Assembly (NCBI GenBank): GCA_024742495.1
Contig: JANSYJ010000003.1
Location: 310,001-374,000 of the forward strand
Direction: 5' to 3'
DNA length: 64,000 nt
Origin: Bacteroidota bacterium
GTDB taxonomy: Bacteria > Bacteroidota > Bacteroidia > Flavobacteriales > Schleiferiaceae
Under the pieces are notes generated by a model. The model had not been told where the DNA came from and did not search any database. It worked only from the letters and a program-made list of their open reading frames with translations. This document shows positions 1-38,567 of this stretch, piece by piece; position 1 is the first letter of the stretch; each line of letters opens with the position of its first letter. Made by a program: the position numbers and the translations under genes.

Positions 1-118
1 TAGGAGCTGGTTGTATGGGACTTGCCTTACGGGGGCAAAATTAAGTCAAATACTGCTAAGGAAAAAGCTTAGAGCGACGATATTGATATATATTTGTGAA
101 TCTTCAAAAATCACAGAA

Positions 119-646
119 ATGGATAAGCCATCTTTTAAGCCCGCAGTGGAAATAGGATTGATCAGTTTAATGGTCTCTACCGTATTTTTAATCTCTGCCT
201 ATGTATTTGATTTAAGCCTACTTACTAGCTTCGGCGCGGGTATTGTTATAATCGTTATTCGAGCGGTGCTTTTAGCTTTAAGCCCTATTCAAGTGCGCAA
301 AAAAGCGGGTGGATATATCTCATTTAAGCATGCATTTTCTGCAGTTGTTATCAGTACCTTGGTTTCATCCATCCCATATTTGATCATTGCATTCCTACTT
401 TTTAAGGTAATTGATCCTGATGCGGCGGTGCAAATGAAGGAACTCACCATACAAGCCACGGCAGATTCGATGCAAAGTTGGGGGGTAGATCAGGCCACAA
501 TTGACCAAAGTATTGAGGAGATTGATAAAACGGATCAATACAGTTTTGGAAGCTTGTTCAAAGGACTATTAACTTCAGTTATTGTTGCAGCTCTTTACGG
601 TTTAATTGTGGCGGCTATCGTTAAGAAGAACCCAGAATTTGAATAA
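119..646 (+). CDS. DUF4199-like integral membrane protein
   Basis: ORF 11..646; the internal ATG at 119 (MDKPSFKPAVEIGLISL...) is the more plausible start. Multiple TM segments; sits upstream of a DPM1/GtrB-like GT2, a common Bacteroidota arrangement. Confidence 0.7.
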   Translation: MDKPSFKPAVEIGLISLMVSTVFLISAYVFDLSLLTSFGAGIVIIVIRAVLLALSPIQVRKKAGGYISFKHAFSAVVISTLVSSIPYLIIAFLLFKVIDPDAAVQMKELTIQATADSMQSWGVDQATIDQSIEEIDKTDQYSFGSLFKGLLTSVIVAALYGLIVAAIVKKNPEFE

Positions 647-659
647 GTAAAGCCATTAA

Positions 660-1619
660 ATGGATTTATCACTAGTAATTCCACTCTTCAATGAGGAGGA
701 ATCATTAAAGGAGCTTCATAGCTGGATTTGTCAAACGGCCGATCAAAACAATATTGATTTTGAAATCATATTTGTAAATGATGGCTCTACCGATAGCAGC
801 ATGGAGGTTCTTCACAGTCTCGCTAAGGACGATTCTCGGGTAAAGATTATTTCCTTTAGAAGAAATCATGGAAAGTCAGCCGGCCTAAACGTAGGTTTTG
901 CGGCAGCGAGCGGAGAAGTAGTAATTACTATGGACGCCGATTTACAGGATAGTCCAGATGAAATTCCAGAGCTGATGCGGCTTATTCAAATTGAAAAATA
1001 TGATTTGATAAGCGGTTGGAAGAAAAAGCGTTATGATCCGCTGTCCAAAACAATTCCAACGAAATTTTACAATTGGGCCACCCGCAGAATTAGCAAAATT
1101 GAATTACATGACTTCAATTGTGGCCTAAAGGCCTATCGCAATGAAGTTGTAAAAGCGGTAAATGTACAAGGAGAGATGCATCGTTACATCCCTGTACTCG
1201 CTAAAAATGCTGGCTTTACCAAAATTGGGGAGAAAGTAGTACAACATCAAGCGCGGAAATACGGAACTACAAAATTCGGCCTAAGCCGTTTTATAAATGG
1301 TCCCTTGGATTTAGTGACCCTGGCCTTTGTTTCAAAATTCTCCAAAAGGCCCATGCACTTTTTTGGACTCTATGGAACCCTAATGTTTGTAATTGGCTTT
1401 TTAGCGGCCATGTATCTGGGTATTGATAAAATCGTGGCCTTGCAGATGGGCGAAAAAGCCAGGCTGGTTACCGAGAATCCATTCTTTTATATTTCATTAA
1501 CCACCATGATGATTGGTTCGCAATTGTTTTTGGCAGGTTTTATTGCCGAATTAATTATTCGCAACAGTAATAAACCGGTAGAATACACCATAGAAGAACG
1601 CGTTAATTTTGGATCTTAG
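660..1619 (+). CDS. Glycosyltransferase family 2 (DPM1/GtrB-like, polyprenyl-phosphate sugar transferase)
   Basis: LSLVIPLFNEEESLKEL..., DADLQDSPDEIPEL, HDFNCGLKAYR, C-terminal TM helices. Confidence 0.9.
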   Translation: MDLSLVIPLFNEEESLKELHSWICQTADQNNIDFEIIFVNDGSTDSSMEVLHSLAKDDSRVKIISFRRNHGKSAGLNVGFAAASGEVVITMDADLQDSPDEIPELMRLIQIEKYDLISGWKKKRYDPLSKTIPTKFYNWATRRISKIELHDFNCGLKAYRNEVVKAVNVQGEMHRYIPVLAKNAGFTKIGEKVVQHQARKYGTTKFGLSRFINGPLDLVTLAFVSKFSKRPMHFFGLYGTLMFVIGFLAAMYLGIDKIVALQMGEKARLVTENPFFYISLTTMMIGSQLFLAGFIAELIIRNSNKPVEYTIEERVNFGS

Positions 1620-2604
1620 GCTTAGCTTAATCATTCCCCTCTACAATAGACCTGAAGAAATAAAGGAATTGCTAGAGAGTCTCTGCTTGCAATCAATTTC
1701 TGATTTTGAGGTTTTGGTGATTGAAGATGGATCCCAAGTGAAAAGCGAGGCCATTGTTCGCTCTTTTAGGGATCGCCTGGATCTTCATTATTATTACAAA
1801 GCTAATAGCGGTCCAGGCCAGTCGCGGAATTATGGCGCGGAACGTGCTCATGGAAATTATTTCATTTTCTTAGATTCAGATTGCATTATTCCACCCAAAT
1901 ATATTGAAGCGGTAAGGGCCTTTTTGGCTCAGAATCCCGTAGATGCTTTTGGTGGGCCCGATAGAGCCGATGAAAGTTTTTCATCAATTCAAAAGGCCAT
2001 TAATTATTCCATGACCTCCCTCTTTACCACTGGAGGTATAAGGGGATCAAAACACAGCGTGGAGAAATTTCACCCGCGTAGTTTCAATATGGGCTATACC
2101 AAAAGAGTGTTCCAGAAAACCAAGGGTTTTGCAAAAATGCGTTTTGGGGAAGATATTGATATGAGCATACGTATGATGAAGGCTGGATTTAGAACTGCTT
2201 TAATTCCAGAAGCCTATGTCTATCATAAGCGACGAAGCACTTGGCCTCAGTTTTACAAGCAAGTTCACAATTCGGGAATTGCCCGTATTAATCTTTATAA
2301 GAGACATCCTGAAAGCCTAAAACTCTTGCATTTTTTCCCAGCGGGATTTAGCGTATTTGTTGTCTCAGCGCTAATTTTGGCTTATTTCAGCCTCATTCCA
2401 CTCTTGCTGCTAGGTTTCTATTTAGTCTTGATATTTATAGATGCCAGCATTAAAAATAAAAGTCTTGCCGTGGGCTTGAAGGCAATACTGGCCTCTTTTA
2501 TTCAGCTTTTCTCCTATGGCTTAGGCTTCATAAAAGCTTTTTACCGGCGATTAATTCTCGGTAAAGGGGAATTTGCGGCTTATCAGAAAAACTTTTATAA
2601 GTAG
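1609..2604 (+). CDS. Glycosyltransferase family 2
   Basis: LSLIIPLYNRPEEIKELLESL, DSDCIIPP, GEDIDMSIRM; TTG start overlapping the upstream stop. Confidence 0.85.
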   Translation: MDLRLSLIIPLYNRPEEIKELLESLCLQSISDFEVLVIEDGSQVKSEAIVRSFRDRLDLHYYYKANSGPGQSRNYGAERAHGNYFIFLDSDCIIPPKYIEAVRAFLAQNPVDAFGGPDRADESFSSIQKAINYSMTSLFTTGGIRGSKHSVEKFHPRSFNMGYTKRVFQKTKGFAKMRFGEDIDMSIRMMKAGFRTALIPEAYVYHKRRSTWPQFYKQVHNSGIARINLYKRHPESLKLLHFFPAGFSVFVVSALILAYFSLIPLLLLGFYLVLIFIDASIKNKSLAVGLKAILASFIQLFSYGLGFIKAFYRRLILGKGEFAAYQKNFYK

Positions 2605-4055
2605 TCCTTTTTTAAGAAGAGCACCGCTCCATTTTCGTACTCCGCCACCATTTTGTAGTTAGAACTGGCCTGCTTCAATTCGGCAATCATTTCCTGATCC
2701 TTATAATTGAGCAAGTAATAGCCCGCGTAATTTTGGTCGCGGTAACCACTTCGACTTAATTCAGGCAGCCACTCCATAGACTTGCTTTCGCGATAGTAAT
2801 TTAGGGATGGCTCAAACAGCCAGTTTATTCCCAAATTAAAATCGGCAGATTTCGCCGCATTGCTGGCTTCTAAATCTTTTAGCATTTCCTTATGAGAGGC
2901 ATCATAAGTCCAAACTACACTTTGTTTGAGGTTGAAATTTTTAAAATTCCAGGCGAGCGAAGCCACTAACAATAAGTTTAAAGTTAATTGCACATGCTCC
3001 CCTTTGGGATAGCTATTAAAGCGTTGAAAAAGAAAGAGCGTAAAACAAAGAGTTAGGGGTGCATAAACCATGGTGGTGCGACCTACCAAATACTCAGTTC
3101 CTAGTATATAATGCTGCGCGATTTGTGCCATGGCGGTAAAAATCAGCCACAGCAAAAGCTCACTATAATAGTACCATCCCGCCTCACTCTTCTTCCGAAT
3201 ATGATCTAAGATGAAAAAGAGGATACCCATTAAAAGGATTAGCCCAATAATGTAGCTTATAGCAGTAGCGACACTGGAAGATTGTTGGTAGGAAAGGATG
3301 CGACTTAATCCGTAAATACTATCGTTCCAAAAGGAACTATTTCCTCCAAATAAATCGCCCGAAATGTTTTTTAAGGGTAAGAATATAAGCAAGGCTAAAA
3401 CCCCAGTTACAATTCCAACCGGGCGCCAAAGGATGCCTAAGCTTTTAGTTTGCTTATCTCCTTCAAGCCAATACAACAGAAGTAGGAGGGCTACTAAAGC
3501 CATATAAGCATATAAGAAGGTAAAGTTGGCATACACCGCAAATGCGGCAAAGAGAAGGGTGCGCCAGATGTGGTGACCATTATTTAATTCGCGGTAGCAA
3601 TAAAGATGGTATATAGAAGCCAAGCTTAAGCTAAGACCCATCCCATAACCGCGGGCCATGCCAAAGAAATCGATAAAATAAAGCTGTAAACCGAGGGCGA
3701 AAAAAGCCAATAATTGAATACCGGGAAAACGAAATTTTCGCGCGATAGCCGCGGCATATCGATAATAGACCATGGCCATTAAAATATTTGGCAGCCTCAT
3801 CGAAAAGTCATTCAAGCCAAAAATATTCACGCTTAGTTTTACGAGTAGGGTATTTAAAATGTGATTATTTGGAATATGTGGCGGCTTGTAGAGAATAATT
3901 CCCAACCAACTTTGTTTCACATAATGAAGGTAGGTGTATGCCTCATCGTGCGTGAGAGGAATACGTAAAGCTCTGAGTATTATGAGGGATATAAAGATCA
4001 TGCTTGCTAAAAACATGATCCAAACGACATATGGTTTTCTAATTTGTTTCCCCAT
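2595..4055 (-). CDS. Multi-TM glycosyltransferase (ArnT/PMT-like, GT-C fold)
   Basis: About 11 TM segments; N-terminal LTHDEAYTYLHYV acidic motif in the first loop, typical of GT-C enzymes. Confidence 0.65.
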   Translation of the reverse strand: MGKQIRKPYVVWIMFLASMIFISLIILRALRIPLTHDEAYTYLHYVKQSWLGIILYKPPHIPNNHILNTLLVKLSVNIFGLNDFSMRLPNILMAMVYYRYAAAIARKFRFPGIQLLAFFALGLQLYFIDFFGMARGYGMGLSLSLASIYHLYCYRELNNGHHIWRTLLFAAFAVYANFTFLYAYMALVALLLLLYWLEGDKQTKSLGILWRPVGIVTGVLALLIFLPLKNISGDLFGGNSSFWNDSIYGLSRILSYQQSSSVATAISYIIGLILLMGILFFILDHIRKKSEAGWYYYSELLLWLIFTAMAQIAQHYILGTEYLVGRTTMVYAPLTLCFTLFLFQRFNSYPKGEHVQLTLNLLLVASLAWNFKNFNLKQSVVWTYDASHKEMLKDLEASNAAKSADFNLGINWLFEPSLNYYRESKSMEWLPELSRSGYRDQNYAGYYLLNYKDQEMIAELKQASSNYKMVAEYENGAVLFLKKDYL

Positions 4056-4140
4056 CTTTAAATTTTAAAGGCCCGCAAATTTATTGATAAGCTCTGTTTA
4101 TGGCGGCAAGCATACCAATTAAAGCTAGTATTTTTGCAAT

Positions 4141-4848
4141 ATGAAGAAAACGACTCTGATCTTTTTACTTTTTGGATCCTTTCTTTTACAGGCACAAAGC
4201 CCAACCGATCCGAAAGATGCACAAGGCCGCCCTCATGGTGTTTGGCAAAAGCTTCATGCTAACGGCAAAATCCGCTACACCGGTACTTTTAATCATGGTA
4301 CACCCGTTGACACTTTTAAGTATTATTACGAAAGTGGGCAGCTGAAAACCGAGAATGTTTTCCGCGGGAAATCGGGTATCTGCATGAGTTTTCAATACGG
4401 CGAAAAAAAGATTCTCGCCGCCAAGGGGCTTTATAACAAGCGACAAAAAGATAGCGTTTGGACTTATTTTAATCGCGCTGGAGATGTGGTTTCTCGGGTT
4501 AGCTATAAGAATGGTTTAGAAGAAGGTCTTACCGAAAAGTACCATACCAACGGCAAGCTTGCAGAAAGCGTTAGTTTCAAAGAAGGGAAGGAACATGGGC
4601 CTTGGTTACAATTTTACGAAAGCGGCAAAAAGATGGCGCAAGGGCAATATGTCAATGGTAAATTACAGGGAGAAACCACTTACTTTTTCTCTTCCGGCCG
4701 GCCGCGATCAAGAGGGAATTATGTTCAAGGTTTAATGGATGGACCTTGGTATTTTTTTACTGATGATTTGAAATTGGATCATAAGGAAATTTGGAAACGC
4801 GGCCGATTGGTTGATGATGGATCTAAAAAAGAAGAAAAGGCAAATTAA
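4141..4848 (+). CDS. Secreted MORN/YwqK-like repeat protein
   Basis: Signal peptide; repeated G.W..Y..NGKL...Y.NGK pattern (HGVWQKLHANGKIRYTGTF..., EGLTEKYHTNGKLAESVSF...). Confidence 0.75.
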   Translation: MKKTTLIFLLFGSFLLQAQSPTDPKDAQGRPHGVWQKLHANGKIRYTGTFNHGTPVDTFKYYYESGQLKTENVFRGKSGICMSFQYGEKKILAAKGLYNKRQKDSVWTYFNRAGDVVSRVSYKNGLEEGLTEKYHTNGKLAESVSFKEGKEHGPWLQFYESGKKMAQGQYVNGKLQGETTYFFSSGRPRSRGNYVQGLMDGPWYFFTDDLKLDHKEIWKRGRLVDDGSKKEEKAN

Positions 4849-6033
4849 ATGGCACGCGTTGTAGTCGGTTTAAGTGGAGGTGTAGATAGTAGTGTTGCTG
4901 CTCAATTGCTTATTGAGCAGGGCCATGAAGTGATTGCCTTATTTATGCGCAATTGGCATGATGAGACTGTTACAATCCACGATGAATGCCCTTGGATTGA
5001 AGATAGTAACGATGCCATGCTGGTAGCGGAAAAGCTGGGGATACCATTTCAAGTAATTGACTTGAGTACCGAGTATAAAGAACGCATTGTTGATTATATG
5101 TTCGCGGAATATAAAGCGGGAAGGACTCCTAATCCTGATGTGCTTTGCAATCGCGAAATCAAGTTTGATGTTTTCCTGGATCGCGCCATGGCCTTAGGAG
5201 CAGACTATGTGGCCACCGGGCATTATTGCCGACGCGAAGAAACCATGGTAAACGGCGAAAAGGTTTATCAATTAAAGGCGGGCAAAGATCCTAACAAAGA
5301 CCAGAGTTACTTTTTATGTCAACTCAACCAAGAACAATTAGCTAAGGCCTTATTTCCCATCGGACATCTTCAGAAAAGTGAGGTGCGGGAAATTGCCAGC
5401 AAACTAGATTTAGTTACAGCGGATAAAAAGGATTCTCAAGGCCTGTGCTTTATTGGAAAGGTGCGTTTACCAGATTTTCTGCAACAGCAGTTAGCACCTA
5501 AAAAAGGGAAGGTGATTGAAATTCCCATTGAGACGGAAATCCCGCGAGATTTAAATCGCTTGCCCGAACAGAATGATTTCTCTGTAAAAGCCGCCCCCTA
5601 CACTTTCGTGGAAGATATGGGAAGTGTAAAGGGTGAACATAATGGAGCACATTACTTTACCATAGGTCAGCGTAAGGGTCTTGGCATTGGTGGTACTCCG
5701 GAGCCTTTATTTGTAATTGCTACGGATACCAAGGAGAATGTTATTTATACCGGTCAAGGGGATTCACATCCTGGCCTAAGAAAGGAAGCCCTTTTTGTAA
5801 GTTCTGATGATGTGCATTGGCTGAGAACAGACCTAGCCTTAAAAGCAGGAGAGTCGGCCGTTTATACCGCTCGTATTCGTTACCGTCAGCCCTTATTTAA
5901 AGTGCAATTGCATGCAACCGAACATGGATTATACGTCCTTTTTATTGAAGCTCAAAAGGCTGTTACCCCAGGCCAATTTGTGGCTTGGTACCAAGAGGAC
6001 GAATTAATTGGTTCTGGTGTAATACAATTTTGA
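4849..6033 (+). CDS. mnmA: tRNA-specific 2-thiouridylase MnmA
   Basis: [17 protein letters not shown]-loop, [38 protein letters not shown]. Confidence 0.97.
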
Positions 6034-6034
6034 T

Positions 6035-7609
6035 ATGAAGAAACTATTTACAATAACCTTTCTATGCCTAACAATGTCGGCTTATGTAAAGGCCCAGGAA
6101 GAAGGTTTACGCGTGTACTTTACCGATAAGGGAAGCAGTACCGCCATTTTGGAGCAAGCAGAATTGTTTTTAAGTCCAGAAGCTCTGGAAAGAAGAGCAG
6201 CCCAAGGCATTGCTGTTGAGAATAGCGATCTGCCGCTTGCCCCGGAATATCTTAAGGAATTGAGAAGGCAAGGAGCTAAGGTCTTAGCGCATTCAAAATG
6301 GCTGAATTACGCCTACCTGACTGGAATTTCAGAAGAGGAATTAAACAGGCTTCCTTTTGTTAAAAAGATTGAACGACCTAAGCAACATCGCAGCTATTTA
6401 GCAGGCACTACTTCCAATTTCGATTATGGTTTGGGTAGAACGCAAATTGAACAAATCAGTGGTCATTTGCTTCATCAGCAGGGCTTTACTGGAAGAGGCA
6501 GCACCATTGCCGTAATTGATGCTGGTTTTACCGGCACCTTACAAGCGGCGGTTTTGGATAGCTTACGCCAATCGGGACGCTTAAAAGGTTCTTACAATTT
6601 TATTAGTGGAGATACCAATGTGTATTCTGGTCAAGGAAGCCATGGTGCCTCAGTACTTTCAATTATGGCAGCCTTAGATACTGGGGCTTTTGTTGGAACC
6701 GCCCCTCATGCTAATTATTGGTTACTCACCTCCGAGAATGTAAGTTCCGAAACCCCTTTGGAGATGGATCATTGGTTAATGGCAGCTGAATTTGCCGATA
6801 GCGTTGGAGCGCATGTTATTAATACCTCTTTAGGTTACACAACTTTTGATGATCCGGCGGACTCCTATTCTTATTCAGATATGGATGGCAATACAACCAT
6901 AGTAACTCGTGCGGCAGATTGGGCTGCCTCTAAGGGCATTATCGTGGTTGCGAGCGCCGGGAATGAAGGATCAGGATCTTGGCAATACATTGGCGCTCCT
7001 GCGGATGGCGATAGTGTTTTAGCGGTGGGAGCGGTTGATGCTACAGGGGCTTATGTAGGATTTAGCAGTAGAGGTCCTTCCTATGATTGGCGCATTAAAC
7101 CCGATGTTGCGGCCATGGGAGCGGGAACGGTATTAATTAACTCTCAAGGTCAGGTACAAAGTGGTTTCGGAACCAGCTTCTCTTCGCCTTGTATTGCAGG
7201 GATGGCGGCTTGTCTCGTTCAAGCGCAACCTACATTGCATGGGGAAGTCATTGCTCGTAATATTCGCAAGAGCGGACACCTATTTGGTAATGCGGATAAT
7301 AATTTGGGCTTTGGAATTCCTAATTTCCAACAAGCATGGCTCATTAGCTCCAAAGAATATTCAGATGAATTTAAGTTTAGTGTTTATCCCAACCCTGCTC
7401 ATGAAAGAGTTTTCATTCACGGAAACTTTGAAAGAGGAGAGATGCTTCATATACAAGTTTTGGATCAATCCGCTAGATCACTCCTGGAACTAGATGTTGT
7501 TTGGGAGAATCAGGCGCTTCAATTAGACTTGACTGAAATTCCGGCGGGCTTTTATCTTCTTAAAATGAAAGGCAGCCAGTCTTATCAAGAAAAAATAATG
7601 TTGCGATGA
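6035..7609 (+). CDS. S8 (subtilisin-like) serine peptidase with T9SS type A sorting domain
   Basis: Asp motif IAVIDAGFTG, His motif SHGASVLSI, Ser motif GTSFSSPCIAGMAA; C-term FSVYPNPAHERV...GFYLLKMKGSQSYQEKIMLR. Confidence 0.92.
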   Translation: MKKLFTITFLCLTMSAYVKAQEEGLRVYFTDKGSSTAILEQAELFLSPEALERRAAQGIAVENSDLPLAPEYLKELRRQGAKVLAHSKWLNYAYLTGISEEELNRLPFVKKIERPKQHRSYLAGTTSNFDYGLGRTQIEQISGHLLHQQGFTGRGSTIAVIDAGFTGTLQAAVLDSLRQSGRLKGSYNFISGDTNVYSGQGSHGASVLSIMAALDTGAFVGTAPHANYWLLTSENVSSETPLEMDHWLMAAEFADSVGAHVINTSLGYTTFDDPADSYSYSDMDGNTTIVTRAADWAASKGIIVVASAGNEGSGSWQYIGAPADGDSVLAVGAVDATGAYVGFSSRGPSYDWRIKPDVAAMGAGTVLINSQGQVQSGFGTSFSSPCIAGMAACLVQAQPTLHGEVIARNIRKSGHLFGNADNNLGFGIPNFQQAWLISSKEYSDEFKFSVYPNPAHERVFIHGNFERGEMLHIQVLDQSARSLLELDVVWENQALQLDLTEIPAGFYLLKMKGSQSYQEKIMLR

Positions 7610-8550
7610 AAAACCGCATTTGCGCTTTATTCGGTATTGAAAAACCAATTATCCAAGCTGGGATGATTTGGTGCAGCGGTTGGGAATTAGCCTCTGCGGT
7701 TTCCCAGGCCGGAGGTTTAGGGATTATCGGCGCTGGATCAATGTATCCAGATATACTTAGAAGCCACATTAAAAAATGCAAAAAGGCACTAGGTGATTTA
7801 CCTTTTGCCGTAAATGTACCCATGCTTTATCCTCAAATTGAGGATTTGATGGAAATTATTGTTGAGGAAAAAGTACCCATAGTATTTACCTCCGCTGGGA
7901 ATCCAAAAACCTGGACCGCTCATTTAAAGGACAAAGGAATAAAAGTGGTTCACGTTGTGAGCTCCTTAAAATTCGCCTTAAAGGCAGAGGCAGCTGGTGT
8001 TGATGCAGTTGTAGCGGAAGGTTTTGAAGCAGGAGGTCACAATGGCCGGGATGAAACCACCAGTTTGGTGCTTTGGCCGATGGTGGCAAATGCCCTTCAA
8101 ATTCCCATGATAGCAGCAGGAGGGATCGCTTCTGGACAACAAATAATGGCCGCTTTTAGCCTTGGGGCAGAAGCGGTACAAATAGGCTCCAGATTTGTGG
8201 CCAGCGCCGAAAGTTCCGCCCATCTTAATTTTAAGGAGGCAGTAGTGGCGGCAAAGGAAGGCGACACGATATTGACCTTGAAAGAATTGGCTCCCGTTCG
8301 CTTGATAAAGAATCCTTTTTACGCCAAATTGCAAGAGGCTTACGCCGATGGTGCCCAGGCGGAAGAATTGAAATTAGTTTTAGGAAGGGCCAGAGCAAAA
8401 AAAGGCATGTTCGAAGGCGACCTGGAAGAAGGCGAATTGGAAATAGGGCAGGTGAGTGGAATGATTGATAATATTAAACCCGCAGCCCTTATCTTTGATG
8501 AGCTTTGGAAGGAATTCCAAGAAGTAAAAAGCAAAGCAATAGATTGGTAA
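7606..8550 (+). CDS. Nitronate monooxygenase / FabK-like FMN enzyme
   Basis: KPIIQAGMIWCSGWELASAVSQAGGLGIIGAG, EGFEAGGHNGRDE, AAGGIASGQQIMAAFSLGAEAVQIGSRF. Confidence 0.88.
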   Translation: MKNRICALFGIEKPIIQAGMIWCSGWELASAVSQAGGLGIIGAGSMYPDILRSHIKKCKKALGDLPFAVNVPMLYPQIEDLMEIIVEEKVPIVFTSAGNPKTWTAHLKDKGIKVVHVVSSLKFALKAEAAGVDAVVAEGFEAGGHNGRDETTSLVLWPMVANALQIPMIAAGGIASGQQIMAAFSLGAEAVQIGSRFVASAESSAHLNFKEAVVAAKEGDTILTLKELAPVRLIKNPFYAKLQEAYADGAQAEELKLVLGRARAKKGMFEGDLEEGELEIGQVSGMIDNIKPAALIFDELWKEFQEVKSKAIDW

Positions 8551-8602
8551 ATCTCTAAATGATACAATAACTAGGAAGAAGGGCGCATTAAATAAGTAAT
8601 AC

Positions 8603-8633
8603 TTGCCGTGTCCTTTATTATAAAATATATTTG
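8603..8633 (+). promoter_or_regulatory. Putative Bacteroidota sigma-A promoter (TTG-N20-TATATTTG)
   Basis: TTG at 8603-8605 and TATATTTG at 8626-8633, 20-nt spacer, 18 bp upstream of the ATG at 8651; matches the TTG-N19/20-TAnnTTTG consensus. Confidence 0.5.
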
Positions 8634-8650
8634 AAGCAAATCTCAATTAA

Positions 8651-11600
8651 ATGAAGAAGTTCCGTTTGTTGATTGTAACAGCATTAATTGCAATCACATC
8701 CTTCACCAGCCAAGCGTCCCACCTTTTAGGAGGTGAGATTTATTGGGAATGTACCCCGAATGGACAGTATATTTTCACTTTGGTACTTTACCGAGACTGC
8801 ACTGGTATTGGCATCCCTACGGGATCGCAACCCTTAAGTGGGCCAGTGCCAGTTACCTGTACTTATATACCAGCCTTGTCAGGAGATGTATCTCCAGACT
8901 GTCCTAATTCGGCCTTGGATATTAATTGTTCAACTGGTGATGATGGGGCTATCGAAAAAGGTGTTTATCGCAGTTCACCGGTGAGTTTAAATGGTATTCC
9001 ACCAGCAGGTGGTTGGGAATTTTCTTGGTCTTCATGTTGTCGTCCAACCTTAGAGAACACCAATGCCTCGGGTTATTACCTTAGGTCGAAGATGTATCCT
9101 TTTACCCCTCCAGGTTCTACTCAGCCTTTAAATACCTCTACTTGTTACGATAACAGTCCTGTTTTTGCTCAAGATGCCAATGCGGTAACTTGTCCAAACT
9201 TCTTATTTGAGTTTAACCACCTTCCATCCGATAAGGATATCGACAGCCTAGTATTTGACTGGGGAAATCCATGGGATAATGCTAATAATAACATCCAATT
9301 TGATGCTGGATATTCAGCTGGCGCACCCTTCCCTGATGGAACCGAAAACCCAAATAACGGTCCCAATACCCTAGACCCTTTTTCTGGAGAATTAACTGCT
9401 TTAGCCAATAACCCCACAGAAGGCTGGTACGCTTCCTGTGTGGTAATTAAAGAGTATCGTTGTGGGCAGTTAATCGGTGAGGTTTTCCGGGATGTACCTA
9501 TTTATTATTTGAGCACGGGCGATTGTCCGGTTAATGCCAGCACCCCTTCGGCGGAAGTAGATACCGCCATTTATAAGAATGTGGAGCGCACCGGAAATGT
9601 GTATCGCATTCGTACTTATCCTCAAGATACCGTTCAGTTCAGGATTGTTGCTCGAGATTTAGATCAGCGCGCAGATGGATCCTTCCAGCAAATTTGTATG
9701 AAAGCGGGTGGACTGCAGCTAAATAGTAATAACTACGCCTCGGCCACGGGATGTAACGGTGCCGCTCCATGTGCTACTTTAACATCTTTCAACTCTTCTG
9801 GTACCTATTGTAGTGTGATTCAGAATACGGTGGAGTTCTTTTGGATTCCCGATTGTGTTCACCTCAATTTTGGAGGTTGTGGAACGGCTTCCAATACTTA
9901 CTTCTTTACCGTTCGTATGGAAGATGATGGTTGTGCTGCGCCTAAAGTAGGTTTGGCCTCGATTATTGTTGAAGTGATTGCGGGTGATCCAACACCGCCA
10001 GATTTGCAATGTTCTAGTGTAAACCTCGATGGCACCATCGACCTGAGTTGGGGACAACCTGAATTAGATAGTGTCTTAGAATTTAATTACTATCGCATCT
10101 ATGGTTCTAGCTCTGCCACTGGCCCATGGACAGTAGTTGATAGCGTTCCTTATTACGATACCCTAACGACTCAAGTACCTTCTCAAGGTCCAACTAGTTA
10201 CTTCTATATGGAAATGAGTACTGGTCCTTGTGACTTTATCTCTTTACCTAGTCAGGTGATATCAACCATGACTATGTCCTTAACCGCCTTGCCGCCTGGT
10301 AGCCCGGAGATAGCCCAAATATCCTGGACGCCCTACAATGGAAGTGGCCTGGATCCCACCCGCGGAAATGTTTATGAAATTTGGGTGGAAGCTCCGCAAG
10401 GCAGTGAGAATTGGCAAAAGCTGGGAGAAACAACAGGAACATCCTATACCGATACGGTTAGCGTCTGTGATATGCTTGTAGCTTATCAAGTTCGAGTACC
10501 GGATACAGTCGTAGGCTGCTCGGCGGGATCTACTCAGGATACCGGTCGTTTTCAAGACCGTACTAATAATACCAATATTGGCCTCGGTAGAGTCCTGGTA
10601 AATCAGAACAATAAGGCCTTAGTCGATTTTGACGCCAATCCTGGTGGCGATATTATTGAGTTCTATTTATTGCATAATGATCCTCAAAATGGATGGGTGA
10701 TTGTTGATACGGTTCCGGCTGGAGCCACTATGCCTTATGAATGGACGGGCTCTATGGCCGATACGCGATCAGAGCAATTTAAAATTGTATCGGTAGATAG
10801 CTGCGGGAATCAGAGTGATGATTTAGCGGTTACACCATATAACACTGTTTATCTAAGGAATTACCTTAATAAATGTGAAGGCTATTCGAGATTAAGCTGG
10901 AACGAATACCGCGAATTCCCGAATGGGGTGCATGAGTACCGCGTTTGGACGCAAATTACCGAAGATGATGGTACGGTATTACCACCTACTATTCTCTTTA
11001 CCGCATCACCAGATGACACTACTTTCCGTCAGAATGTGATTAAGAAGGGCTACAGTTACTGCTACGTAATTGAAGCTCGCGATACCATCGCTAATCTTAG
11101 CTCTACCTCCAACACCGTGTGTGTAGAGGCTGCGGTACCGCAACAATCGGAGCAATTGTATATCTCAAGGGTTACTAATGACTTTACTCGTAACTCCATT
11201 GATCTTGAAGTGTATATCGATGGCAATGCCGATGTTAGAAGCTTCCAAATCCAGAGAGCACCGGAGTATTATGGTCCTTATCGCACTATAGCCACTTTAG
11301 GTAAACCTACCCAGGCACCTTATATCATCGACTTCCAAGATTTTGGAGTAGACGCCAATCGCTTCCAGTATTTCTACCGCGTAACGGCAACGGATAGCTG
11401 CGGTGGTTACGATACCATTAGTAATATCTCTGGAAATTTAAGATTAAGAGTTCGCTCGGCTGAAGATGTAACCAATCGCTTAAACTGGAATCGTTACCTC
11501 GGTTGGGGTGGAGTAGTAGAGCGTTATGAGATTTACCGTCGCCCTGCCGATGGCATTAGCTGGAAGAAGGTTGGTGAGAATATCTCCACCAATGGAAGAG

Positions 11601-30785: not shown

Positions 30786-31325
30786 ATGAGCCAACCAAGC
30801 CTAAACGAATATCAATTGCGGCCGCGCTATAAGTTCCGCAATCAACGAGCCATTGCCGACCTGCGGGCCTCATTAAAAAGCGGTTTAGATAATGAAGCCG
30901 ATAAATGGCCTTTGAAGTTTAAGGACACCCATGGTCATTTGATCTTTTCCTACCGACCGCCGCATAAGCACACTTGGTCGCCAGAGATGGATTTAAATAT
31001 GGAAAGCGATAGCGAAGGAGGCACCTTAATTCGGGTTTTAATTGGACCAGCCGCCGGTGTGTGGACCTTTTTTATGTTCCTCTATTCAATTTGTGCCTTG
31101 CTTTTAGTGGGAGGTTTTGTGTTGAGCTATAGCCAGTTTGTTTTAGAAAAGAACATCTGGGGATTTTGGTTAATCCCAATTGCGGCAGTAGGAGGGGTGG
31201 CCATTTATGCTGCGGGCCTATACGGTAAAAAGAAGGCCATTCCACAAATGATTTTCTTAAAGAAATTCTTTGATGCTAGTCTTCCCCAAAGCGAGCTCAT
31301 TGAAGGGGATTTGAAGAAGGTTTGA
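30786..31325 (+). CDS. Hypothetical membrane protein
   Basis: 179 aa, two TM helices, clean intergenic placement; no family recognised. Confidence 0.6.
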   Translation: MSQPSLNEYQLRPRYKFRNQRAIADLRASLKSGLDNEADKWPLKFKDTHGHLIFSYRPPHKHTWSPEMDLNMESDSEGGTLIRVLIGPAAGVWTFFMFLYSICALLLVGGFVLSYSQFVLEKNIWGFWLIPIAAVGGVAIYAAGLYGKKKAIPQMIFLKKFFDASLPQSELIEGDLKKV

Positions 31326-31856: not shown

Positions 31857-32090
31857 GTAGCAAAATCCTAGAAAAAAGCAGCTTGCTTTTAAATAAATGA
31901 GTGTGGGTTTTTGCGCGGTCTGACGGTTTGGCTATCGGCAGTGGTGTCCCGAAGGGCATTGTGTACAGGTGTTGTTTCACGCCTTTGCTTTTTCATTTTT
32001 TTTCTTCAGAATTGGGGCAGCCATAATCTTTGGCAAGTTTTGGAACGTGCTGCTGCCTTGTGCGACTTGGCAATGTGTATGGATTCATTT

Positions 32091-35000
32091 TCAAATTCTT
32101 GTCACTTTAATTTCTTGCTTACTCATTAGTACTGAATCTTCATATTTAGACCTAGTTAACTTCTTTTGAAGAAACAGATTCTTCTCGATCGATTTGATCT
32201 GTTTTAATCCATTCTCTGAAACTGTAACAAACCATCCTTCTCCAACCTCTCCATCTTTACGTGGTGTCATGCTCGTATTTCCATTTGACCAATAAATTGA
32301 TTCTGCCATTAGTTCACCTTCAGAGCTTTTCCAAGCAAATAGTTTAGTTGGTTCAGGATCCCACCCAAGATGTCTTGCCAAAACAGGGTTAATAGCAATC
32401 CATTTAGATTTTAAATCAAACTGATCGAATCTATGATCCCTAATTACAACTATAAAATGTCCACCACCTCTCATATCATGGTAGTTCTTACTCAATTCGT
32501 GAAAAACAGAGCCAAAAATGTAATTATCATCTTCTTTCAACTCGTCATTAACAGCAATCTGATTCATGTATTCTTCAGTTGGAGCTCCCCAGTCCAAGTT
32601 CCTAATTTGGCTGTATTCGCCAATTATTTTAAAATCATCATGATAGTTTAAAAGTGATTCACCTAGTCTATCTGATTCACCTATTCGATCTAACCAATGA
32701 TTGCCAACGCCTCCAAAATCTCTTTCTTTAATCGTCTGAATGAATTCGGGTTTATCTACTTCATTAAAAAACTGAACGGCATAATCATGCGATATCAAAA
32801 GATTCTGAATTCTCTCATCATCAATTGTTCCAGAGTCTATTAATTCATTTGTGACGTACATTATAGCTCTACGTGCAGCGATTACCATCGGTCTAGGGTA
32901 AGAGTATTTTAGGTAAATTTCTCCCAAATGATTTCTTAGCTTCTTTTCATATTCAACCGTCCATTCTTCCTCTCTACCAATTTCTTTCATGATAGAGTAG
33001 GCTCTATAAATAAGGTTAAGTTCATCAATTCCAGACTCATCTGATAAAATTTTGATTAAAAATTCAAACGGTCCTATCAAGTCTCGGGGGTCATTAATAT
33101 CAACTTCTGGAAAAAAAGGGTCAATCTCTTTTTTAAAATCTGGCTTCCCGTTTTCTGGAATATGTAAAGAGTATACTTTAGGTAATTGAATGCTTTTTGG
33201 AGTTGGAATTTCTTCCCCTATTGAGGAAAGTATGTCTATTGCATTTTTTCTTAATTGATAATCATTTGATAGAGCTAAACTGCTGATCTTTGATTTAAGC
33301 GAATGAACTTTTGGAGAGTCGAGTGCAGATAAGTTTATTATCACCTCCACACATGAGTAATCATCTAAACAACCATTCAGTAACTGAGTCAGGGCATAAT
33401 CATCATCTTGATTTATGTATTTTGACAATAGCAGTAAGGATTGTTCCTTTACTAACGATACAGGACTTTCTGCTAAATACACCAAGTAATCGACTAACGT
33501 TTCCATGATTGGTCGATTTAATGATGGGAGATTAGGTAAATCCGTAACCTGCTTACTATTCGACATCAATCTTTGTAGGTATCCATATATTTCAGGCCAA
33601 AGTTTTTCCTCATCATAATTTTCTGTTAGAAGTGGAACAATGTCTTCAAGATGTTCGATATATGAACTCGGATAATTACTGCTCACAGTGTCATGGGCAA
33701 ATACTTCAAATGCCTTATTGGATGAGATTACGGGATTGATTTGTTTCAGTGCATTAAACGCATTGATTCTTGTTCCTCCATCATAATATTTAACCCATCC
33801 TGATTCGCTTGATAGCTCAATACTTTTATTAGCTAAACTAGTTGCCAGTTCAGTATTGCCTAACCTTAAGGCGGCTTCGCTTAGTTTGGCATAGAAATCC
33901 GACTCTTTTCTTCCAATTCTTGCTAGTTTGGCAACTTCTTCAATTTGACCTGAAGACAATAATGGAGTTATTTTATCTATAACTTTTGACCAATGAAAAA
34001 ACGAATTTGCCTGATCTTCTTCTTGAATAATTTTCTTTAAATCATCAAAATTTGTAACACGTTCTAGCACTTCATTTTCATCAATAATTTCATGATCTTT
34101 TTTTAAAGTCAATGTATTAGAAGCGTTTTTAGAACTGCTTCTTTTGTTTTTTGCAGGTAGATTAAATGATGAATAATAATCTCCTGCTTTTAGTCCTTTA
34201 GAAGTATAGAAATCATCAATTTCAGATAGTAAGTAATGTCTAGTTTCTTCGTAAGCTTTAATTTCTATTGCCGAAATAATGGAGAGAATATGTTCTAGTA
34301 GAAAATCTTCTTTAAAAATTTCATATCCCTTTTCTAGAATTGAATTGAGCAGAGAAGAATCTGAAGATTCGGCAAGAAGCAGATATAAATCATTGTACAG
34401 TTGAACAATACTTTGGAACTCTTCCTCACTTTTTGTTCGGTTGACGAAATGTTTTATAAAAAGAGTAATGGTACCTTTAAAATCGACCAGATCATTTTCT
34501 AATTGCCAAATTGCCTGTTCAAGACCATCATTCAAATCATGTTCAAACGTTACTGCTAATAATTCTTCAGAAGCATTCCAATAAGCTCTTCCTTCCGTGG
34601 TTTCTTTAATATGGTTTAAATGAGATAAGAACCACTTTATTCTTTCAGTAGCTCCTGATGTGCCTTTATGGTTTATTTTTCTTAACCATTCGATCCATGT
34701 ACTAAATTGATAGTCTTTTCTATAACCTACTCCAATAGATTCTTGAATAGCTTGTTTGAGCCATTTTTCACCTTCCTCCAGCTTACCTAAAATGAACCAT
34801 ACTTCTGAATGAGCCAAGCATTCTGTTATACGACCATCTATATCATGATCTTCCAACATGGAATCTTCCAAGGATCTCAACTGTATTACTGCTTTTTCGG
34901 CATCAAACACATTATTAAAGAGGGATTTGATGATTTCACGTTGGATACTTGAACTCCAATATTTTGGAGAATTTTGAAACTCACCAAATAAATAATCTCC

Positions 35001-38000
35001 TAATAATTCTAGTTTTTCAGAGCCCAACTCAGATACTGCCGATATCAAAAAATCAAAATATTGCCCTTTTGCTTGTGTTAGCTTATACCAATAACTGTTT
35101 CTGTGTGATATTTCTTTGTAGTAAAACCGAACTATTGGAAATACTCTTTTAATAGGATCACCAGACATTGGCGTTTGAAGAATTCCTTCCGCTAGAATTT
35201 GAGTAGTAATACATAACATTCGTTCAAACTCTACTATGACTTCTTCATCAGTACCTTTTGCAACAGATGGAATTGCAGACGTAATAGAAATACCGTTCCC
35301 AGATAGGTAAAGTAATTTGTTAAGTTTGATTAATGGAAGGAAGGCGTCTAAGGAATCATCATATCCCAACCGATCTTTACTACCCACATTAGAAGGTTGT
35401 TCAACATCCTTAATCCAGCTATATGTTTCATTTAAGTCACGGGTGACTTTGTAAACTAAATCGGCAATGAATATTTTGCCAACAGGTTTTGTCTTCTCTT
35501 TAGTGAAATGAGATGTTAATAATGACAAATATTCATTCGCTCGACTATTATCTTTTAAGTCAAGGCATTGCTCGATGGCATATTTTATTAGTTGGAAAAG
35601 AGAATTCCTTCCTCTCGAAGACGTGTGATCTATTTTTTCTTTAACTTTATTGAAATCATCCCACTTATTTTGATCAACTAAACTATAACCAAGATTCGAG
35701 AGGAGCCTTAGCTGTAAATCAGATTCTTTTTCTTCAAATCTGTTTTCTCGGATGCTACCTGAGAATTTAATATTATCAATTATCGAGAAAATATTCTCAG
35801 TCGTTTCAAAAAAAGGAGAGGTATAAATCCATTCTTCTAAAGAGTCCCTTATTTCTTTGTATCTGTGAGAATCATCAATGTGTATTCCGGAATCTGTAAT
35901 GATTTCCGGATATGCTAAATTGTATAAAATTGCTCCTTCAGATTTGTATCCAAATTCTATAAACAAGCGACATGCTTTGAATGCATATGATTCGCTACAA
36001 TGTAAGGTATTACCAGTTCTTAGATAATCTCTGGCTAAATCAAATTTATTTAGGAATAAGAGCTCTTCTGTAAATGATGCAGGATCAATATTGAATAACC
36101 TTCTTTCGATTTCCGCTAATGAGAACAGATATCTTACAAGAACATTGATGTCCTTATTTTGTCTGGCTATTTCAACACCTAATTTTGCATCTTGCTTTAT
36201 TTCTTCTGCTGGTCTGAAGTTAAGTAGTTGTTCAGTAAAGCTATCTGGTGTAACGACTGAAACAAACCTCTCATATTGCTGTGCTTGAAATAGATGGTGA
36301 TTCTGTTTCCAAGAATTTTCGATTTCTGACTTTACATAATAATCAGCGAGTTCGTTATGATACTTGATATTGCTTGTTGGATCAAACTCATTTGTTAAAT
36401 AGTTTAAGGCAGTATGATGAAGAAGGAATTGCTTAAATGAATTATGAAAGAAAGACAAGGTTTTTTCTGATTCATTAAATAGAAACCTAGCTTTTTCACG
36501 AAAGGATTTTAGTACACTAATCTGGAAACCCCATTCCTGAATGAACTGAAGATTGATTGAACCATTAATTCTCGCAATTAAACCTAAGAATTGAATTTGG
36601 CTATCTTCTTTCTGTATAGGCTCCCATATTTTTTTATAATAATTATCAATACTACCATCTATGACTTCAAAAGATTCGATTGTATTGTCAATCCAATCTG
36701 CCATATTGATTTTATCAACTAAGTAAGACAGATATAAGGGGTGCCCTTGTGATTTCTCGAATACTTGCAACTTTTGTGAACTGGCAAGTTGAAATGTAGA
36801 ATCGATACTATCAATGTATTTGTATACTTCCTCTTTGTTAAGCGAATCAATTTGAATAGTTCTATTTCCGTTCTGAAATTCAGTTTTAATTTCCTGTTGA
36901 ATGTCTTCAAGTTCATAGGATTGGCTGCCTAAAATAATGAAGACTCCATCAGGTAGAGTAGATGGTAAAGGAAGCTCTCGTAGAAAGCTATTTGTTGTTG
37001 ATTTATATTCCCTTGGAACATGATCTAGACCATCAATCAATATTATGGTCGGTTGGCCATTTGTCGCAAAGTCCTCTCCAATTGCTCTTAGTTGTTCATT
37101 GAACACATCCTTTAAAAAAAGTAAGTCTTTATACGGAAGTATGTCTCTTTTATATATCCCTGCATCCTTTAATTGAAATACTAAATCGAATAAAAGATAG
37201 GTAGCATTTCCTCTTTCATGGAAGTTTCTGTGTGAAGATGGATTAACAAAATCAAAGGCATAGTAACTTATTACACGTGATTTTAGACTTTTCGACCATT
37301 GATTCAATAAGGTGGATTTTCCAGAGCCTGGGCCTCCCAGTAAAAATAGGTAGCCATTTTTATGCTCTTCTAATTTTGAATTTAATAAGTCAATTGTTGA
37401 TTGAATCGGTTGATATCTTTGTCTATCAACTATTAGCTCATGGTTAAAAATTGTTTTAAATCTGTCAGACCAACCTAGTTCTTTAATTATTTCTTGTCGA
37501 GTAAATTCAACGACTCTTTCTGGGCTGGCAACCTTTTCAACTATAAATCTGCTGATCTGTTGAAGGTCTTCGTCTTCCTTAGAATATTTAATTTTTCCAA
37601 CACTAAACTGTTTTTGTTTATAGTCAGGTTGAAAATCAAAACAGGCTACAAACTCTTCAAAATCAGAATCATTGAGTTTTGAACTCTTTTTGAACTCCCC
37701 AAGAACTGAATTCCACTGAGCATCAATTGTTTGATTTGATTTTATCCTTCTCCAAACTTCTGAAAAGAAGTCTTTAAATGAACCAATTTTAGCGTCGCCT
37801 TCTTTCAAGCTGTCATGGGAGGAAATAGGCTTATTAGTGATTAAATGAGGAATTATTTTTTTACTAGGATTAGCTGTTTTTAAACTCTTCCAACTAGAGG
37901 TTATCTGAGGTAGCAACTCTGTAAAATTTGCGAATGATATGTTCGCATCAGCGATAGTCCATTTTACTTGGTACGCATGAATTTCTGAATGAGAAGAGTA

Positions 38001-38165
38001 CTGTATATCATCCAGTTTTTCAGCCTTGGGGTCTGCTATTCGTATCCATTCAAGCTTTTTATTTATTAGGTTCAAATAGATAAACCAAGCGAACTCATCA
38101 AATTGAGGCAAATAGCCCCCCATTGCTGCTCTTTCTCCACTTGCTGATACTATTTCTTCGCTCAT
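32091..38165 (-). CDS. Giant STAND/NACHT-type ATPase with N-terminal DUF4297/Cap4-like nuclease; putative Avs-like antiphage defence protein
   Basis: 2024 aa. Nuclease-like IRIADPKAEKLDDIQYSSHSEIHAYQVKW (aa 41-69); Walker A GGPGSGKST (aa 277-285, nt 37311-37337); Walker B PTIILIDGLDHVP (about aa 372-384); long helical-repeat C-terminal half. Confidence 0.8.
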   Translation of the reverse strand: MSEEIVSASGERAAMGGYLPQFDEFAWFIYLNLINKKLEWIRIADPKAEKLDDIQYSSHSEIHAYQVKWTIADANISFANFTELLPQITSSWKSLKTANPSKKIIPHLITNKPISSHDSLKEGDAKIGSFKDFFSEVWRRIKSNQTIDAQWNSVLGEFKKSSKLNDSDFEEFVACFDFQPDYKQKQFSVGKIKYSKEDEDLQQISRFIVEKVASPERVVEFTRQEIIKELGWSDRFKTIFNHELIVDRQRYQPIQSTIDLLNSKLEEHKNGYLFLLGGPGSGKSTLLNQWSKSLKSRVISYYAFDFVNPSSHRNFHERGNATYLLFDLVFQLKDAGIYKRDILPYKDLLFLKDVFNEQLRAIGEDFATNGQPTIILIDGLDHVPREYKSTTNSFLRELPLPSTLPDGVFIILGSQSYELEDIQQEIKTEFQNGNRTIQIDSLNKEEVYKYIDSIDSTFQLASSQKLQVFEKSQGHPLYLSYLVDKINMADWIDNTIESFEVIDGSIDNYYKKIWEPIQKEDSQIQFLGLIARINGSINLQFIQEWGFQISVLKSFREKARFLFNESEKTLSFFHNSFKQFLLHHTALNYLTNEFDPTSNIKYHNELADYYVKSEIENSWKQNHHLFQAQQYERFVSVVTPDSFTEQLLNFRPAEEIKQDAKLGVEIARQNKDINVLVRYLFSLAEIERRLFNIDPASFTEELLFLNKFDLARDYLRTGNTLHCSESYAFKACRLFIEFGYKSEGAILYNLAYPEIITDSGIHIDDSHRYKEIRDSLEEWIYTSPFFETTENIFSIIDNIKFSGSIRENRFEEKESDLQLRLLSNLGYSLVDQNKWDDFNKVKEKIDHTSSRGRNSLFQLIKYAIEQCLDLKDNSRANEYLSLLTSHFTKEKTKPVGKIFIADLVYKVTRDLNETYSWIKDVEQPSNVGSKDRLGYDDSLDAFLPLIKLNKLLYLSGNGISITSAIPSVAKGTDEEVIVEFERMLCITTQILAEGILQTPMSGDPIKRVFPIVRFYYKEISHRNSYWYKLTQAKGQYFDFLISAVSELGSEKLELLGDYLFGEFQNSPKYWSSSIQREIIKSLFNNVFDAEKAVIQLRSLEDSMLEDHDIDGRITECLAHSEVWFILGKLEEGEKWLKQAIQESIGVGYRKDYQFSTWIEWLRKINHKGTSGATERIKWFLSHLNHIKETTEGRAYWNASEELLAVTFEHDLNDGLEQAIWQLENDLVDFKGTITLFIKHFVNRTKSEEEFQSIVQLYNDLYLLLAESSDSSLLNSILEKGYEIFKEDFLLEHILSIISAIEIKAYEETRHYLLSEIDDFYTSKGLKAGDYYSSFNLPAKNKRSSSKNASNTLTLKKDHEIIDENEVLERVTNFDDLKKIIQEEDQANSFFHWSKVIDKITPLLSSGQIEEVAKLARIGRKESDFYAKLSEAALRLGNTELATSLANKSIELSSESGWVKYYDGGTRINAFNALKQINPVISSNKAFEVFAHDTVSSNYPSSYIEHLEDIVPLLTENYDEEKLWPEIYGYLQRLMSNSKQVTDLPNLPSLNRPIMETLVDYLVYLAESPVSLVKEQSLLLLSKYINQDDDYALTQLLNGCLDDYSCVEVIINLSALDSPKVHSLKSKISSLALSNDYQLRKNAIDILSSIGEEIPTPKSIQLPKVYSLHIPENGKPDFKKEIDPFFPEVDINDPRDLIGPFEFLIKILSDESGIDELNLIYRAYSIMKEIGREEEWTVEYEKKLRNHLGEIYLKYSYPRPMVIAARRAIMYVTNELIDSGTIDDERIQNLLISHDYAVQFFNEVDKPEFIQTIKERDFGGVGNHWLDRIGESDRLGESLLNYHDDFKIIGEYSQIRNLDWGAPTEEYMNQIAVNDELKEDDNYIFGSVFHELSKNYHDMRGGGHFIVVIRDHRFDQFDLKSKWIAINPVLARHLGWDPEPTKLFAWKSSEGELMAESIYWSNGNTSMTPRKDGEVGEGWFVTVSENGLKQIKSIEKNLFLQKKLTRSKYEDSVLMSKQEIKVTRI

Positions 38166-38190: not shown

Positions 38191-38253
38191 AAACAGCTTT
38201 TTTGGTTTTTTCAGCGTTTGCCTCTGTGTCGGCAAAAACCAAATGTGCTGTTT
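38191..38253. repeat. Large imperfect inverted repeat (20-bp arms) 5' of the giant gene
   Basis: AAACAGCTTTTTTGGTTTTT (38191-38210) versus AAAAACCAAATGTGCTGTTT (38234-38253): 17 of 20 positions Watson-Crick paired plus one G.T, 23-nt loop. Confidence 0.7.
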
Positions 38254-38323
38254 GTGTGTTGGCTTTTTATCGCATGGCATACAACAATTAAGTAAACTTA
38301 ATAATATCCAAAACAAAAACGTG

Positions 38324-38484: not shown

Positions 38485-38493
38485 TCTTATTTG

Positions 38494-38567
38494 TAGCGAG
38501 AACGAGAGTTGAACTCGTGACCTCCGGGTTATGAATCCGACGCTCTAACCAACTGAGCTACCTCGCC
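38494..38567 (-). tRNA. tRNA-Met (CAT)
   Basis: Minus strand GGCGAGGTAGCTCAGTTGGTTAGAGCGTCGGATTCATAACCCGGAGGTCACGAGTTCAACTCTCGTTCTCGCTA; acceptor, D and T arms fold; anticodon loop TTCATAA. Confidence 0.95.

Follow-up and report, generated by a model that had tools for sequence, protein, structure and literature searches.

A Candidate Single-Gene Avs-Type Anti-Phage Protein Combining an Avs1-Related STAND/Sensor Chassis with a Fused PD-(D/E)xK-Type Nuclease in a Bacteroidota Genome

Described Avs Systems and the Window Gene

Among the characterised Avs proteins, Avs1 to Avs3 sense the terminase (as cited in PMC12724215) and Avs4 the portal, ATP-dependent oligomerisation and nuclease effectors leading to cell death being reported in PMC12931631 and PMC12724215. 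In addition, Avs5 shows that Avs proteins are able to sense quite different proteins (PMC12931631). Two of these systems serve for comparison here: Avs1, composed of the MBL pro-nuclease Avs1a, the protease-STAND protein Avs1b and Avs1c, and Avs3, a single-gene nuclease-STAND protein (8dgc).

The gene under study lies in the window, that is, the whole stretch of 64,000 nucleotides that was analysed, and encodes a complete protein of 2024 aa, as supported by the ORF call and by full-length relatives. In layout and size it resembles Avs3, whose chain in 8dgc has 2028 aa, although no sequence match links it to the Avs2-5 models. With Avs1 it shares the STAND core and, within the sensor, the first ~520 columns or more, and it is related to this system end to end by way of a Bacteroidota locus (L034) presented below; however, a PD-(D/E)xK nuclease replaces the trypsin-like protease, and there is no MBL or Avs1c partner. 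The architecture of Avs/AVAST proteins in the broad sense, namely an effector-type N-terminus, a STAND module with Walker A and B motifs and a helical-repeat sensor, is thus present. We therefore regard the window gene as probably encoding a single-gene Avs-type (STAND NTPase) anti-phage protein that is both effector and sensor.

By analogy with the characterised systems, the helical C-terminal sensor would bind a conserved phage protein, and the large terminase is the first candidate trigger because the STAND and sensor parts are related to Avs1. Such binding would lead the NACHT/STAND module to load ATP and to oligomerise, oligomerisation would join the N-terminal PD-(D/E)xK domains so that DNA is cut, and this cutting would halt the phage while sacrificing the cell. 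It is from this analogy that we infer phage binding, oligomerisation, DNA cleavage and cell death for the window protein.

The Gene and Its Three Parts

The original prediction had placed a single 2024-aa ORF at 32091-38165, and the ORF is found at exactly those positions. The strand, which had not been given, is the minus strand, where this very large frame is intact, the plus strand over the same interval being crowded with stops. The further claim that one ORF unites a nuclease, a STAND module and a long helical sensor is supported by invariant motifs, Foldseek matches, profile similarity and a patchy distribution.

The N-terminal PD-(D/E)xK-type nuclease domain, delimited from the family alignment, the model and profile comparison, covers aa 1-185 (37611-38165, minus strand). 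The D...DD...QVK pattern expected there is located as predicted, at D45, D52-D53 and Q66-V-K68, and is invariant family-wide, the latter as Q66-x-K68. In total, 95 residues are invariant over the aligned family, including D45, D52, D53, Q66, K68 and the Walker A and B sets, and this invariance extends to homologues from Proteobacteria and Rhodococcus whose overall identity is ~20-26%. Since they are identical in all aligned members, the nuclease and Walker motifs do not occur by chance. The predicted structure of the N-terminal part has the order helix-strand-strand-strand-helix-strand, with D52/D53 at the start of the second strand and Q66-x-K68 at the end of the third, which is the topology expected of PD-(D/E)xK nucleases, but its low confidence (pLDDT 59) makes this model supporting only. 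As both structure models are of low confidence (pLDDT 59 for this one and 62 for the other), the nuclease fold proposed in the original prediction rests on the invariant motifs, on profile similarity of the Cap4/CBASS type and on a weak model of the right topology.

Regarding this profile similarity, an hhalign comparison of the first 240 residues of the family with the N-terminus of the L037 protein gave E 6e-6, compared to E 0.3-0.7 for the controls (shuffled, reversed, protease), and the same L037 N-terminus matches CBASS SAVED-linked PD-DExK endonucleases/effectors in PADLOC with E 2.6e-15. The L037 protein itself (L037:8443-14460; 2005 aa) joins an Avs1b-like STAND to an N-terminal PD-DExK nuclease of the SAVED type, so that a related chassis is seen here with another kind of nuclease. 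Weak Cap4-type matches occur in two relatives, to a PADLOC Effector model in L026 (E 5.5e-4) and to the Pfam family Cap4_nuclease, PF14130, in L027; the latter (E 0.038, 14.6 bits against a cut-off of 26.2) is the best among the scanned members, none of which reaches the cut-off. No match to PF14130 is present in the window protein, and a PF14130 search in relatives gave no match anywhere, not even in the controls, which deprives it of informative value. The likeness to the Cap4-type/SAVED-associated PD-(D/E)xK domain (PF14130, CBASS effectors) lies in the D...DD...QxK motif, whereas the window family stays below the curated cut-offs and has its domain attached to a STAND sensor and not to SAVED.

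The STAND/NACHT ATPase and the winged-helix region that follows it span aa 250-640 (36246-37418, minus strand), according to Pfam, PADLOC and the family alignment. Walker A, GGPGSGKST (aa 277-285, with K283; 37311-37337, minus strand), and Walker B, ILIDGLDH (aa 375-382; 37020-37043, minus strand), were read in the translation at the residues predicted and are invariant across the family, with G277, G280, G282, K283, S284 and T285, and D378, G379, L380, D381 and H382, identical in all aligned members. Pfam NACHT matches aa 273-451 above its cut-off (E 4.9e-8), and PDB sequence searches returned only P-loop similarity. The top Foldseek match for the model of aa 1-674 (pLDDT 59) is the Avs3-terminase complex 8dgc, with E 2e-13; a HerA-DUF assembly, LmuA and the regulator MalT are also among the matches. 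STAND proteins serve as regulators too, and the presence of MalT among these matches would fit a STAND protein that has decayed or been domesticated and now serves the cell otherwise, for instance in regulation; this is nevertheless unlikely, given an invariant nuclease motif, a patchy and mobile distribution, a between-family transfer at 91% nucleotide identity and the lack of a conserved host partner gene.

The C-terminal helical-repeat sensor, defined from the model, Foldseek and hhalign, comprises aa 641-2024 (~1,380 aa; 32094-36245, minus strand). It is modelled almost entirely as helix up to ~aa 1780, the last ~240 residues being of low confidence with some strands, and the family alignment shows a conserved, partly beta segment at aa 1840-1985 (32211-32648, minus strand), also found in the protease-type L034, in which E1850, P1927, W1935 and G1962 are family-invariant. 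With the C-terminal half, Foldseek retrieved generic helical solenoids only. By hhalign, the sensor aligns with the protease-type alignment led by L034 at 100% probability over 1,231 columns, and with canonical Avs1b from Cupriavidus/G500 at 97.6% over 519 columns. The original prediction recognised no family in this half, and indeed none of the libraries searched names the window family; yet the relation of STAND and sensor to Avs1b means that the C-terminal half is at least partly recognisable.

The chassis of the window family is ~16% identical to canonical Avs1b, the sensor match to it is limited to the 519 columns, and family members reside on plasmids and mobile elements, so that the same tripartite defence protein could respond to something other than terminase or portal, for instance the entry of a plasmid, a protein of jumbo phages or some other structural protein, with Avs5 as a precedent for quite different sensed proteins (PMC12931631). 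We hold such a trigger to be possible at somewhat less than even chances, considering that Avs1 to Avs3 sense terminase (as cited in PMC12724215) and that no positive evidence points to another trigger. The reading preferred here keeps the large terminase as the first candidate.

Relationship to Avs1 and Probable Exchange of Effectors

The PADLOC Avs models, a check suggested along with the original prediction, returned Avs1b as the sole match, over the STAND core (aa 259-587, E 1.5e-39). NCBIfam likewise gave only Avs1b (NF041810), with 110 bits against an equivalog cut-off of 1500 and over aa 259-586 only. The Avs2, Avs3, Avs4 and Avs5 models of PADLOC/NCBIfam did not match at E up to 1, the Avs2 model NF041813 being confirmed as present in the NCBIfam set. 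The defence role is supported as a prediction, and the subtype, formerly described as unassignable, can be narrowed to an Avs1b-related STAND/sensor with no match to Avs2-5. That only Avs1b models match might even suggest AVAST type I proper, with partner genes elsewhere, but this is highly improbable in view of the score of 110 against 1500, the nuclease-like N-terminus and the lack of an adjacent MBL gene: no trypsin-like protease match was found in the window protein (hhalign against the L034 protease domain, E 0.71), and no MBL-like protein was seen by eye among the neighbours of the gene. The absence of protease and MBL partner is the reason to call the window protein Avs-like but not Avs1.

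A Bacteroidota Avs1-like locus (L034:365-8209) combines an MBL nuclease gene and a protease-STAND gene. Its MBL protein matches Avs1a with E 2e-91, though below the Avs1a-family cut-off, and its second protein, of 1892 aa, bears an Avs1b-type protease domain on a STAND and sensor that share 27-31% identity with the window protein (aa 238-1314 and 1407-2007). Of the window family and canonical Avs1b, the former is the closer relative of this protease-STAND protein. Downstream, a 291-aa gene without NCBIfam match may be the Avs1c counterpart. In a STAND plus sensor tree (1,805 columns), L034 falls inside the nuclease-type clade (96/95), and the grouping of the protease-type proteins as one clade is rejected (AU p 0.012). 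With STAND only this grouping is not rejected (AU p 0.29), so the reading as an effector swap depends on the sensor columns. Exchange of effector modules on one sensor-STAND chassis is the likeliest explanation of these comparisons, in line with a report that different immune systems have repeatedly acquired nuclease-protease pairs (PMC12799240). The occurrence of two unrelated killing modules on nearly the same sensor and switch would amount to a natural experiment on the modularity of bacterial NLR-like immunity, and implies that sensing and killing are separable. Besides, two further family members (L012:10001-16072 and L020:10001-16069) are mosaic, their upstream flanks being nearly identical and their sensors similar, with codons 100-500 only 63-75% identical, which suggests recombination in the nuclease/STAND part.

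Distribution

The window gene is absent from all 58 relatives screened, among which six belong to the same genus, and in a phylum-wide draw of 396 genomes three others match, one over the STAND core only. About 20 full-length relatives with 20-91% identity were collected from Bacteroidota and from plasmids of Proteobacteria and Rhodococcus; one genome scan alone gave thirteen full-length relatives (55-91%). The closest copy, from Flexithrix (Flammeovirgaceae, another family), shows 91.3% DNA identity and a dN/dS of 0.14, which indicates purifying selection on the window gene. Other hosts are Psychroflexus, Marixanthomonas, Wenyingzhuangia, Marinifilum and Chryseobacterium, and full-length homologues sit on plasmids of Vibrio, Nitrosococcus, Rhizobium, Agrobacterium and Rhodococcus. 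A more distant homologue occurs on large Enterobacteriaceae plasmids and in 11 of 5,426 E. coli genomes, in nine cases as a chromosomal copy. It is over 99% identical across the 11 E. coli genomes, and with this E. coli homologue the trigger is directly testable. The plasmid and Enterobacteriaceae records are labelled 'ATP-binding protein' or 'hypothetical protein', and the protein accessions of four homologues are mentioned in none of the papers searched. A scan of viral contigs with the family profile retrieved no relatives, nor did phage records.

The original prediction had named two findings that would speak against it, the lack of a predicted nuclease fold at the N-terminus and close homologues that are conserved housekeeping genes; on examination neither spoke against it, and the homologues are patchy and accessory. 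On sequence comparison, the window gene is an acquired, horizontally spread accessory gene. Its family can be described as an unnamed one of the Avs type, widely but thinly distributed and made of an Avs1-related chassis with a fused nuclease, a description that is well supported as regards the Avs-like reading.

As for gene neighbourhoods, the window gene lies outside any defence island, its neighbours, read by eye, being housekeeping-looking (a ribD-type deaminase-reductase, a START-like protein, a PAP2-like protein and a glycosyltransferase). In other hosts, the Nitrosococcus copy is near a Dsr1 gene, and a truncated copy in G220 adjoins SspB, SspC and SspD genes (SspD, E 7.5e-114). At L035:10522-15309 the homologue is cut to 1595 aa by a converging DUF3883-like gene, inside an Ssp (phosphorothioate-linked) locus whose SspC is split in two. 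These Ssp and Dsr1 neighbourhoods support a defence role.

An Integron-Like Cassette

In Psychroflexus (L013), the gene forms a 6.4-kb integron-like cassette with attC-like sites at its bounds, other hosts being less complete. Upstream homology between hosts starts at the R'-like box GTTGTATGCC, at 38285 in the window and at 9875 in both L013 and L019; in the window this 5' boundary occupies 38276-38285 (minus strand). In L013, an attC-like imperfect inverted repeat of 124 nt (AAC...GTT) ends exactly at the GTTGTATGCC boundary, a second attC-like site lies behind the gene and a third delimits the cassette after it, the z values of their single-strand folds being -1.6, -5.6 and -7.1, respectively. 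Such sites are flush at both ends in L013, at the 3' end in L019 and L016 and at the 5' end in L021, the 3' site of L019 folding no better than shuffles, and the outer boxes covary between hosts, with GTTGTATGCC/GGCATACAAC in L013 and GTTAGCTGC/GCAGCTAAC in L016. Flush attC-like sites and complementary R'/R'' boxes, the marks of a cassette, are therefore found in relatives. These sites were searched for with a home-made direct scan of arm complementarity with shuffles, because the MAFFT alignment of these sites did not resolve the 3' arm well enough to build a covariance model.

L013 resembles integron gene cassettes in its attC-like ends, in a tyrosine recombinase 4 kb upstream and in a neighbouring small toxin-like cassette. 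The family unit differs from them in its 6.4 kb, far above the usual size of integron cassettes, in a recombinase below the TIGR02249 integron-integrase cut-off (as in G003, it is above that of NF040815, 'tyrosine recombinase/integron integrase') and in a window copy with no recognisable 3' attC. In this copy the 5' R' box is intact, but the 3' boundary is a degenerate R''-like box, GGCGTGAAAC (31974-31983, minus strand), followed by no attC hairpin better than shuffles, which is why the 3' site may have decayed and the copy may be locked in place. Elsewhere in the genome of the window organism, an integron-like array (L070, G000:C22:4500-24400, at ~1-11150) encodes a 376-aa tyrosine recombinase and has nine attC-like sites, 123-127 bp long, that delimit small cassettes.

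Two hairpins are conserved inside the unit: one in the 5' leader, formed by an imperfect inverted repeat with a T-run after it (38192-38252, minus strand) and kept in seven hosts, and a hairpin directly 3' of the stop codon (32021-32082, minus strand), kept in five hosts with two compensated pairs. They are perhaps terminators insulating the cassette. The former scores as attC-like in the scan, yet it is a 61-bp leader hairpin located within the cassette and was rejected as an attC.

We give about an even chance to a wider proposal: that these proteins form a separate AVAST clade without a name, whose phage-sensing STAND chassis is combined with either a fused PD-(D/E)xK nuclease or the Avs1 protease together with an MBL pro-nuclease, and that this clade travels among Bacteroidota as an integron-like cassette of exceptional size (6.4 kb). 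If true, cassette-borne phage defence would extend to giant NLR-like sensors, and integron-like arrays could carry immune receptors of 6 kb from one bacterial family to another, far exceeding the small defence cassettes that are generally considered.

The Insertion Site at tRNA-Met

The window gene is a low-GC single-gene insertion (GC 0.33-0.35 against 0.40-0.43 in the surroundings) beside a tRNA-Met (38493-38567, minus strand; tRNA evidence and comparison with G005), an Rfam scan giving no other credible RNA match. The site is nearly empty in two genomes of the same genus: the spacing of the flanking genes is 7.36 kb in the window, 0.7 kb in G004 and 0.47 kb in G005, compared to ~19 kb in G003, and homology between the window and G005 ends near 31293 and resumes at 38320. 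In G003, the same tRNA-Met site holds a ~19-kb array of small genes (L064/L065, G003:C1:1109500-1130500), with toxin-antitoxin-like ones among them and an integron-type recombinase. At the empty site of G005, a partial second tRNA-Met-like copy (L063:1700-2135) was observed, hinting at past integration events at tRNA-Met.
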